In this document: positions 21,355 to 25,223 of the stretch, piece after piece
How positions within the stretch are numbered: position 1 is the stretch's first letter
Layout: every line of letters begins with the position of its first letter
Assembly (NCBI GenBank): GCA_023544605.1
Contig: JAMJFQ010000004.1
Span: 1-33,158, forward strand
Source of the DNA: ANME-2 cluster archaeon
Lineage (GTDB): Archaea > Halobacteriota > Methanosarcinia > Methanosarcinales > Methanocomedenaceae
Direction of reading: 5' to 3'
Length of the DNA: 33,158 bases
The notes under the pieces: model-generated
Database searches by the model: none
What the model was told of the DNA's origin: nothing
The model's input: only the letters and a program-made list of their open reading frames with translations
Translations under genes and position numbers: made by a program

Positions 21355-21520
21355 TTTGAATTGCCCTCGTAAAATGAATGTTGAATAATGTGGTGGTAAA
21401 AGGATAGATGATTATAAAAAGGTGCTGTTTTCTGTTATATTCTAGTAGTGAAAGCATAAGGATTAATAGTCAGTAAGGTTTAATTGGTAGCACCGAAATA
21501 AGTTAAAAATTGATATATAT

Positions 21521-21591
21521 GCGGCCGTGGTCTAGCGGTATGACAGAGGCTTCCCAAGCCTCTAATCCGGGTTCGATTCCCGGCGGCCGCA
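21521..21591 (+). tRNA. tRNA-Gly (anticodon CCC)
   Basis: Acceptor stem GCGGCCG/CGGCCGC, anticodon stem-loop GAGGC-TTCCCAA-GCCTC, T arm CCGGGTTCGATTCCCGG, then T tract. Confidence 0.97.
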
Positions 21592-21749
21592 TTTTTTTTC
21601 AATAACTCCTGGGGTTGCAGGATTAGATACTATTGGTTAATTCAATTATTTTAATTAATAATCATATTAATTGGATCATAATTTTACGATACTTGACCAT
21701 TGATTCACCGAATATTAAATATTATATGGTATATTATATTTTTTTAATA

Positions 21750-21812
21750 GTACATAAAGTATAACTTTTTGTACTCAAGTTAATCCGACCGAAGGGAGGA
21801 TTTTCTTGTTTT
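21750..21812 (+). repeat. Left arm of 63-bp inverted repeat flanking accessory island
   Basis: GTACATAAAGTATAACTTTTTGTACTCAAGTTAATCCGACCGAAGGGAGGATTTTCTTGTTTT; reverse complement at 24328-24390 with one mismatch. Confidence 0.9.
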
Positions 21813-22025
21813 TTAAAATATTAACTTTATAGTAAACTATAAAATATCAAAATAAATGATAATGAACATTTAAAACAAAAAAAACCCTAAAAAACCGTTG
21901 GAAAATATCGGTATTATTAAATATAGTGCAATTCTTGAAGATTCCCGTTGAAAATTGTCCCCTTTTTCCCACCAATTTTGACCCACCTTAATATGACTTT
22001 TCATACCTTTAATAGTTACTCATTG

Positions 22026-23422
22026 GTGATCGGTTAAGCCCTCCATTGGTCCATTAATCTCTTCCTATTAACATTCGGGTCAAGCGCTTGACTTTGATAT
22101 ACTTCAAAAAGCTCCATAAGACCTGCATCAATCTCCGCATAGTCAAGAACAGCGTCCAAAAGTCTATGTGATTTTTCAGCAAATATCGTTGCCCACCTCA
22201 AATGAGTATAACGAGGTGCATTTTCAAGATTTGCCGAAAACACCAGGCAATAAACACGTCTCGACACTATCAACGTTAATATCCCTACCCACAGAAGAGC
22301 TTCCACCACCTGTGGGTTTGAAGTTGGCAGTATGTCGATACCGTATCTGCTTTTAAGTTCTTTAAAAATAAACTCAATTTCCCATCTGGCCGAATACAAG
22401 ACCGCAATGTCTTCAGCATCAAGACGTTCAACGGGAATATTTGTGATATATACATGATGCTTTTTAACTTCTTTATTGTACGTTGCGACAAGCCGAAAAC
22501 GTTTAGCATCTCCCTTTTGTTTCCCATTATATGCTCTACGTTTAAACTCCACTTCTACTTCCACATCAACAACGTGTCTCTTCAGTTTAGGCAATACTTC
22601 GCTTAACCTTTTTCCGACAACATCTATAGAACGTCCACGCCAGGTACGTTTTGTCCCAACGATGAGTGGGTCAACATTACTTTTCAACCTGCTGACGAAA
22701 TATCCTCCATTTTCATCAATGCGCGCAAACGTATTATGTTTGTAAAAACCCAGATTAATAAGCAATATTCGATCCTTTATCCAGGGACCTATCCGAAGCG
22801 TCTTCACCTCATGGGTACGTTCTCCACATAATGCTATACGTTTGGTCCATCTTCCACAGCACTTACGAGAAGACTCAACTTAACACCCGCAGCAACTTTC
22901 CTCGTCCTTACTGCCGGCCATTTATCAGCTAATTTTTTATGTAGTCGGATAATCGTGCTGTCTTGAATTACAAGGTCTTCAAAGCTAACCAACTTATCTT
23001 TCAATACTCGAGAAGGGTTCATTGTGATGTTTTCTAGCCCATGAATGACACATGCATGAAGAAAATCTACAAGTTCTGGTGTGAAGCGATCATAGAAACT
23101 GCTACGGCTAATGTGTATTTCACCTTTTTCTTCGTAGAGCCGTCGTAAACATGCTAATGTTCTCTGGAGCTGCACACCAAAACCCAAGGTTAATGACCAA
23201 AACATAAGTGCAGGGTCAATCTTTCGGTCTCGCTTTACAAATCCTGCTTCTTCAGCGGTTTTCCTAAGCCATTCTGCTGAAAAAATTCTGTTGAGTTCTT
23301 CTTCGATTAACCGAGGTTTTTCTGGTTGTTGTATCTTTTGTGCCACGCGGCATCCCCTCCGCATGTAGAAAAAACGTATTGAGTTGTAATATAATTGTCG
23401 ATTATTTACCTTAACCGATCAC
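22026..23422 (-). mobile_element. Decayed IS4-superfamily insertion sequence, about 1.4 kb
   Basis: 13-bp terminal inverted repeats GTGATCGGTTAAG (22026-22038) / CTTAACCGATCAC (23410-23422) bracket the transposase ORFs. Confidence 0.75.
22034..23364 (-). pseudogene. IS4-type DDE transposase split by a -1 frame disruption (ORFs 23364..22834 and 22807..22034)
   Basis: N part ends ...LVIQDSTIIRLH...AVEDGPNV*; the other frame continues KRIALCGERTHEVKTLRIG; C part carries YSARWEIEFIFKELK (Y-R-E-K-like signature). Confidence 0.85.
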
Positions 23423-23623
23423 GTATGGAAAGTTATTATTGAATGTAAAGGTTATGCTGATAAAGAAGCAATTGAACAATTGAAACGTTATCGTGCGAAT
23501 TATCCAGAAATTACAAGGTGTTTATTAGTTGCATCTAAAGTAAGTAAAGAGGCTATAAAAGAAGCAGAGTTAAACCAAATAGAAGTTTTTGAAACATTTT
23601 TTAAGTTTGAAAAAATAGTTTGA
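23423..23623 (+). pseudogene. C-terminal fragment of a PD-(D/E)XK-like nuclease, truncated at the IS end
   Basis: Open frame with no start: VWKVIIECKGYADKEAIEQLKRYRANYPEITRCLLVASKVSKEAIKEAELNQIEVFETFFKFEKIV*. Confidence 0.6.
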
Positions 23624-23978
23624 ATTATGAAAACTTCAAAAAATACTTAAATCTGAGCATCCAGTGACTGGAAGAAAAATAAGGAGTTTCTATTTCTCAA
23701 CCCTGTCTTCTTGAATCCTTTTCGGAAATTGCAGATATTTTTTGCAGGTTAATTCATCGCCTACATCCCAAACCTTATCATGTGGTACCCTTTTACCACA
23801 CATCGTACGTTTTTGTAAGGGTTCATCATCTTCATTTACCTGTACTAAAGGTGTTTTGGCATTTTAATTAAAACTCCCATATCACCCCTCAATCCCTCTC
23901 AATTCCATTCCAACGGTCTGTAACCCGCAGAGAGATTATAAGTATCAAAAGATTCAGTTTTAATGTAGGAGTTTAACT

Positions 23979-24263
23979 ATGGTGATAATAGATCCCTGCC
24001 AACGCCTCAATACGATCCAAAACCAACTGGTACCTGGCATGATCAAAAATGCTCATGAGATTGCGGCATCTGGTGCTACAAATATAAGATCGGCCATCGA
24101 ACAAAATCTGCCTGAACTTGAAAAGAATTGCTACGAACTTGCGGCACGGTGTGAGAAAAAATGGCCGAAATGTGGAGAGGAAGTTGAATTGTGCAATGAA
24201 AAGAGGATACAAAAACTATTCCAGGATACCAGAGATGAACTTGAACATATCTGGAAAGAATGA
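23979..24263 (+). CDS. Hypothetical 94-aa protein
   Basis: ORF with upstream TAGGAG; no family recognised; inside the IR-bounded island. Confidence 0.5.
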   Translation: MVIIDPCQRLNTIQNQLVPGMIKNAHEIAASGATNIRSAIEQNLPELEKNCYELAARCEKKWPKCGEEVELCNEKRIQKLFQDTRDELEHIWKE

Positions 24264-24327
24264 GAAGAACAACAAAAGGTCATGGAAAGCCATAGACGTC
24301 AACAATAACAAATAACGTAATCTGAAC

Positions 24328-24390
24328 AAAACAAGAAAATCCTCCCTGCGGTCGGATTAACTTGAGTACAAAAAGTTATACTTTATGTAC
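24328..24390 (-). repeat. Right arm of 63-bp inverted repeat
   Basis: AAAACAAGAAAATCCTCCCTGCGGTCGGATTAACTTGAGTACAAAAAGTTATACTTTATGTAC. Confidence 0.9.
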
Positions 24391-24398
24391 AATAAAAA

Positions 24399-25223
24399 AT
24401 GATTCGTGGCTCTTCAGGCGAAAAAAGCCCGGACAACAGAAAAGACCAATACATTTTATCCTGTTCTACACCCAAAGAGTCAGAACAACTCATACAACAA
24501 CCTTTGGTAATGATCTTGGCACCCCCCTCCACCCAAACCCGTATCGAGCAAAAACAGCAAGAACTCCAGGCCCTTATCCAGTACCCTGAAGAAAAACTCG
24601 CCAGCATCATCAAAGACGTGGGATTCACATGTGACCTGTGCGGCCGCTGCTGCACTGAAGAATTCAATGACCATGTATTCCTGCTCGATGCCGATACTGC
24701 CGTTATCAAACAGATCGACGCTCTGGCCCTGACACCCGCTCCCTACTTTGATTTTTGCGACCAGCACGGCAGGTTCTATGTTTCAGGTTATGCCCTGAAA
24801 AGCAGACCTGACGGCTCATGCTATTTCCTGGATGGGGGGCGCTGTACCATCTATTCCCGCCGCCTGTCCATTTGCCGGGTATATCCATATATGCTGCACA
24901 GGGAGGCAGATGAGTCCGGCAATGTGGACTGGCGCCAGGTCAGCGGCCTGGACCAGCACGGTTGCTACAACACCATGATAGAGGATACCGAGGCCCGGCA
25001 AATAGCAAACGAGACAAAGGAATACGAAGTGGCATTCTTGGAACAGGAGATACGCTTCCTGGAAACCATTAACACCCATTTCAGCCAAAACGGGCTCAGG
25101 CACATCCAGAGGGTCTATGACAGGCAGATGAGACATCTCCAGAAGGGGGGAAGCATAGAGGTCTGGGTGTATTACAACGGCAGCTTTGAGAAGAACCTAC
25201 TCCCTGCAAAGGAACAGGGATAG
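24399..25223 (+). CDS. YkgJ-like cysteine cluster protein; true start could be 24510
   Basis: FTCDLCGRCCTEEFNDHVFLLDADTAVIKQ; DGSCYFLDGGRCTIYSRRLSICRVYPY. Confidence 0.85.
   Translation: MIRGSSGEKSPDNRKDQYILSCSTPKESEQLIQQPLVMILAPPSTQTRIEQKQQELQALIQYPEEKLASIIKDVGFTCDLCGRCCTEEFNDHVFLLDADTAVIKQIDALALTPAPYFDFCDQHGRFYVSGYALKSRPDGSCYFLDGGRCTIYSRRLSICRVYPYMLHREADESGNVDWRQVSGLDQHGCYNTMIEDTEARQIANETKEYEVAFLEQEIRFLETINTHFSQNGLRHIQRVYDRQMRHLQKGGSIEVWVYYNGSFEKNLLPAKEQG

Follow-up and report, generated by a model that had tools for sequence, protein, structure and literature searches.

Each arm of the 63-bp inverted repeat in the window, by which we mean the whole analysed stretch of 33,158 nucleotides, is a separate copy of a mobile element of 61 nt, which is non-coding and non-autonomous and probably moves as single-stranded DNA (ssDNA) by an IS200/IS605-like reaction, in which a Y1 HUH enzyme would act in trans. 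The 2.6-kb "island" enclosed by the arms is merely the DNA between two copies of this element.

The inverted repeat itself is real. As originally predicted, positions 21750-21812 match the reverse complement of 24328-24390 with one mismatch (98 % over 63 nt), and AATA lies directly outside both arms; ungapped extension lengthened the match to 72 nt at 96 %. The neighbouring tRNA-Gly was identified as tRNA-Gly(CCC) at 21520-21592, and the predicted contents of the interior, a dead IS4 element with short ends of its own (22010-22038 and 23410-23438, 29 nt, 76 %), a nuclease-like fragment and a 94-aa ORF, were all present. The features are as follows:

21741..21747, + strand: insertion target of the left copy, TTTTTAA, which fits TTTNTNN (consensus of 102 copies and empty sites)
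21748..21808, + strand: left arm, complete 61-nt element, TA followed by GTACATAAAG...GGATTTTCTTG (covariance-model match, E 2e-16)
21750..21774, + strand: left-end hairpin GTACATAAAGT-ATA-ACTTTTTGTAC (ssDNA fold; 81 double changes over 75 sequences)
21776..21808, + strand: right-end hairpin with CAAG guide, stem with tandem G.A/A.G mismatches and terminal CTTG (fold and covariation)
22010..23438, - strand: decayed IS4-family element with imperfect terminal repeats, unrelated to the arms
22034-22807 and 22834-23364, - strand: IS4-family transposase, split in two
23426..23623, + strand: nuclease-like remnant (...VIIECKGYADKEAIEQLKRY...), unrelated to the arms (similarity below curated cut-offs)
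23979..24263, + strand: 94-aa ORF, unrelated to the arms (no family match)
24332..24392, - strand: right arm, complete 61-nt element in the opposite orientation, TT followed by GTACATAAAG... (covariance-model match, E 5e-16)
24393..24399, - strand: insertion target of the right copy, TTTTTTA, which fits TTTNTNN (same flank kept in G006 and G001)

The similarity of the nuclease-like fragment was to NucS, HSDR and Mrr and was weak, every match being below the cut-offs. The 3' part of the 94-aa ORF and the DNA from there up to the right arm are conserved in the related genome G006.

Dispersal of the element

BLASTN against the whole genome matched the 63-mer 46 times, on many contigs, and contig ends truncate several of the matches; these and all other genome copy numbers are counts of search matches. 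The similarity of the two arms is far beyond chance and is accounted for by this dispersed repeat family. By our own arithmetic, a random scatter of 46 copies over 1.63 Mb would be expected to yield about three pairs that lie within 2.6 kb of each other, so the pairing of the arms is in itself unremarkable. Copies that were read with their flanks stood alone or formed tandem units of 60-61 nt (C63, C57, C45, C107). Two types of left end occur among them, AAAGT-ATA-ACTTT and AATCT-ATA-AGATT, and the differences between the two types are compensatory.

The element was found throughout the family, and ANME-2 relatives have it in many copies. Among the carriers are Candidatus Methanomarinus sp. 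HR1 (ANME-2 cluster, Methanocomedenaceae), Methanosarcinales SMBSF02 and others, Methanothrix/Methanosaeta-labelled MAGs and one Methanosarcinaceae MAG. A covariance-model search detected the element in 31 of 238 Methanosarcinia genomes, patchily outside ANME-2 and largely in clade-wide blocks: 17 of 17 genomes of family f1 (one by a single weak match), in f4 every one of the seven g27 genomes and two genomes of g19, in f7 two genomes of g39, and in f3 a few genomes. It is densest in SMBSF02 (G011) and in the genera g27 and g39. The right-end core had no exact match in viral contigs. No description of the element for ANME-2 or Methanosarcina was found in the open-access literature and, as far as that literature goes, this is a new, undescribed family of miniature archaeal elements. 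Several of the contig breaks and short tandem arrays of these assemblies are probably due to it, and it is a source of markers for recent genome change in uncultured methane-oxidising archaea. The long form also occurs on MAXM01000101.1 (L128, 3,022 bp), which bears the label Desulfobacterales bacterium C00003106; since this sulfate reducer belongs to an ANME partner lineage, the contig is probably misbinned and comes from ANME-2.

Empty sites, ends and target of the element

The many natural empty sites allow the exact ends, the target and the outcome of insertion to be read directly. The flanks of 19 copies (G000, G003) were joined without the element and searched against the family. Empty and occupied orthologous sites were found at about nine loci: C46 of the genome under study versus G006; C79 versus G007; C61 versus G004/G007/G005; C106 versus G003/G008; C124 versus G012; and G003 copies versus G001/G002/G006. 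The net insert was 61 nt (60 for a copy that is 1 nt shorter), with neither a target duplication nor a loss of target bases; the one exception, the pair L189/L084, differs by three more bases. For example, the empty site of G006 reads TTTTATTC^TGGAATAACC and its occupied counterpart TTTTATTC-(TAGTATAT...TTTTCTTG)-TGGAATAACC; the empty site TTTTTGA^ATATTAAAAGG of G004 and G007 corresponds to the occupied TTTTTGA-(TAGTACAT...TTTCTTG)-ATATTAAAAGG; and the empty site TTTTGTCC^TGTCCG of G007 gave the same outcome. The inserted unit is thus TWGTAY...GGATTTTCTTG, directly 3' of TTTNTNN, i.e. a 59-nt block GTAY...CTTG and the two bases (TA or TT) that precede it. Where the base next to the insertion point is T, the cut could be set one base further to the right, but sites at which A or C comes next (C61, C124) retain the first T, which therefore belongs to the element.

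Among 102 copies, T was found at positions -7, -6, -5 and -3 of the target in 88, 98, 97 and 98 copies, respectively, and positions -4, -2 and -1 are free; the first base outside the 3' end was T in 89 of the 102. The last eight bases of the element, TTTTCTTG, satisfy the target motif themselves. The 3' end of a resident copy is therefore a target, which explains the head-to-tail tandem arrays. The 61-mer has no terminal inverted repeat. These data support the mobility of the element well.

Two further sites were noted. In HR1, a 115-nt form (L137, 7354-7469, - strand) lies just upstream of the orthologous tRNA-Gly, on the opposite side from the left arm in the window; the neighbourhood of this tRNA gene was hit independently in HR1 and in the window. 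In Methanothrix-labelled MAGs, one site (L083, 4994-5323, versus L169) holds a plain copy in one genome, whereas in the other the copy is split by a further palindromic sequence; these are nested insertions.

The region between the arms

The original prediction had offered two readings: an outer, non-autonomous or decayed transposon that ended in the 63-bp repeats, had duplicated 4 bp of its target and was later entered by an IS4 element, or else two inverted copies of a dispersed palindromic repeat. Only the second reading stood, and the scattered single copies found by BLASTN speak for it. The long, near-perfect inverted repeat and the AATA on both sides would fit an outer transposon, but we consider this reading extremely improbable. 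The arms occur singly or in head-to-tail tandem at dozens of sites, with neither a fixed spacing nor a paired inverted arrangement, and in the empty-site comparisons, which refute the outer transposon, the inserted unit was a single copy. The supposed AATA duplication dissolves into two T-rich targets read in opposite directions, each followed by the TW start of its copy (TA or TT).

The flanks are unlinked in relatives as well. PurP and tRNA-Gly, the left neighbours, stay together there, and the right neighbour, a CxxCxxCC gene, is located on another contig, so that no single accessory island exists. In G001, G003, G005 and G006, the stretch that was read after tRNA-Gly does not contain the left arm; the DNA beside this arm shows possible homology to sequence of G003 that begins about 0.8 kb beyond tRNA-Gly, but this is too AT-rich to count. 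The right-arm site, in turn, is occupied without the left arm: at this position G006 and G001 have the T-rich target and an old, diverged left end (window 24328-24399 versus L193/L212 and L209), followed by a gene of about 480 bp (a membrane-type protein by eye) that the window does not have. Behind this gene G006 has GGATTTGTCG^TTGTTCAG, which is a good target, and the sequence behind the copy in the window is TT-TTGTTCAG. A simple interpretation is that a second copy may have inserted in the same orientation and that recombination between the two copies then removed the gene.

Two conserved hairpins

The copies of the window folded as ssDNA into two adjacent hairpins (-12.6 and -11.7 kcal/mol, z about -6). 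The left hairpin has 11 bp and an ATA loop. Among 75 distinct sequences its positions were 93 % paired and showed 81 double changes, versus at most 21 in controls with slid partners. In an alignment of 21 sequences, none of 500 shuffles equalled the real alignment on any one of five measures; such shuffle tests are inflated by the relatedness of the sequences, but the slid controls agree with them. The right hairpin is laid out as CAAG-NN-AATCC-GA-CC-GAA-GG-GA-GGATT-TT-CTTG. Its tandem G.A/A.G mismatches hardly vary, and its stem shows compensatory changes (AATCC/GGATT to AATGC/GCATT). Both hairpins are thus kept by compensatory changes. The CAAG 5' of the right hairpin, a tag shared by nearly all copies, is complementary to the terminal CTTG, and the two covary to CGAG/CTCG in three sequences; in a class of copies that ends in GTTC, the guide pairs at two of four positions, the central ones. 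At the left end, the cut and the hairpin are just two bases (TW) apart, which leaves no room for a left guide.

A conserved structure could also belong to a structured RNA or a transcription terminator that has a host function and is not mobile. Most copies are indeed found outside long ORFs (in a crude test, 19 of 103 sites crossed one of 150 codons or more), and they often follow T-runs. Against this, related species cleanly have or lack the element at a given site, unrelated sites hold near-identical copies, some copies are tandem or nested, and no curated Rfam covariance model matched either arm at E up to 10. A host function of this kind is therefore very unlikely.

Proposed mechanism and candidate mobilisers

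Insertion without duplication, a target-like motif at the 3' end, subterminal hairpins and the complementarity of guide and terminal tetranucleotide, which is partial in the copies that end in GTTC, are features of IS200/IS605 elements and point to movement as ssDNA by a Y1 HUH enzyme. The element, in the order T-W-GTAY, left hairpin, T, CAAG, right hairpin and CTTG, would be recognised at its hairpins by a transposase acting in trans. At the left flank the cut would fall 3' of TTTNTNN and at the right end 3' of TTTTCTTG, assisted by the pairing of CAAG with CTTG, and insertion adjoining the 3' end of a resident copy would give a tandem array.

A search for a gene or transposase bounded by the ends of the element found none in the family or in genera g27 and g39; because these repeats fragment the assemblies, the search could have overlooked an autonomous copy. 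The genome under study has only short Y1 genes of the IS200 type, and the resident IS200 was rejected as mobiliser: its 3' ends (CAGGCCNGG...CCGGGGTATA...GTGACT) are unrelated to those of the element. The ends of the IS200 copies across the family and of those in g27 and g39 likewise differ from the ends of the element. A TnpB-bearing IS605 was rejected because TnpB is absent from 8 of 10 carrier genomes tested. G008 contains several Y1 genes and almost no elements, which counts against a Y1 mobiliser. A RAYT-like Y1 ORF of 273 codons was seen on C10 of G009 (L064, 93-911) beside a bacterial-looking 5'-nucleotidase gene; given this neighbour, it is probably a bacterial contamination of the HR1 bin and was rejected. 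IS91 and Helitron elements, which use CTTG or GTTC as target tetranucleotides, the very tetranucleotides in which the copies studied here end, were rejected since GTTC is part of the insert and is absent from the empty sites.

The same element could instead have been moved in trans by a double-strand cut-and-paste or an IS110-like transposase, or copied through RNA, an explanation we regard as unlikely, though it deserves more weight than a host function. It gains from the failure to find a Y1 gene with matching ends, from the left hairpin being too near the cut for a left guide and from the ability of IS110-type elements to insert without duplication. However, the subterminal hairpins with their conserved mismatches, the related cleavage motifs at both ends and the CAAG/CTTG complementarity fit IS200/IS605 better, and the element neither has terminal inverted repeats nor makes a duplication. 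The preferred reading is ssDNA movement, and the element poses a clear, testable question as to the enzyme responsible.

Comparison with known elements

The precise insertion 3' of a short target without duplication and the imperfect subterminal hairpins at both ends are shared with IS200/IS605 insertion sequences and their non-autonomous derivatives (PMC6006769). In IS200/IS605, the terminal tetranucleotide of the right end is complementary to the one 5' of the hairpin (PMC6006769). As in these elements, the 3' cleavage motif TTTTCTTG resembles the target TTTNTNN; unlike them, the element is only 61 nt long, and no tnpA or tnpB with its ends was found. It also differs from IS608, whose two ends are alike, in that its two hairpins differ in sequence and there is no room for a left guide.

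REP sequences and REPINs, which go with RAYT (TnpA-REP) transposases, are high-copy small hairpins with a 5' tetranucleotide guide, mostly intergenic and lone or arrayed (PMC6006769, PMC3733652). The element resembles these hairpins in all these respects, but its tag is CAAG, not GTAG or CGTC, and it has two different hairpins in a fixed head-to-tail order. It is, moreover, archaeal, whereas the study PMC6006769 recorded IS200-type subclass 1.1 alone and no RAYT in archaea. REP-like mobile hairpin repeats are well described in bacteria and hardly in archaea. As a tentative interpretation, which we hold to be possible rather than probable, the element may be what REP systems of bacteria are matched by in archaea: a widespread ssDNA element of 61 nt with two hairpins, which also has longer, modular forms and is moved by a trans-acting transposase not yet recognised, possibly exchanged between ANME-2 and other Methanosarcinia.

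Unlike classical MITEs and other transposons with terminal inverted repeats, the element shows neither such repeats nor a target duplication. The Sulfolobus MITEs SMN1 and SM3A (320 and 164 bp), each of which has a known partner insertion sequence (PMC3718332), are comparable by description as non-coding archaeal elements moved in trans, which for the 61-nt element is the proposed mode.

Longer and partial forms

HR1 and SMBSF02 contain versions of 106-212 nt in which extra hairpin modules, variable in number (e.g. CGAAGATTCTACGAATCTTC and TAATCTTCAGCTTCTTCGAAGCTTCAGTC), lie between the same ends (L063, L081, L099, L130, L184 and others). One site has a short form in HR1 and a long form in SMBSF02 (L130 versus L184). 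With its fixed ends and variable number of internal hairpin modules the element resembles the pneumococcal BOX, which, in contrast to it, has terminal inverted repeats and target duplications (PMC3049150). Larger elements bounded by the same ends were considered and rejected, since copies that consist of the right end only share no upstream gene. A solo right-end hairpin with a long, near-perfect stem (TTATATTAAATAAAATCC...GGATTTTATCTAATATAA) and no left end was seen in HR1 (G009; L075, 1073-1120, and L097).
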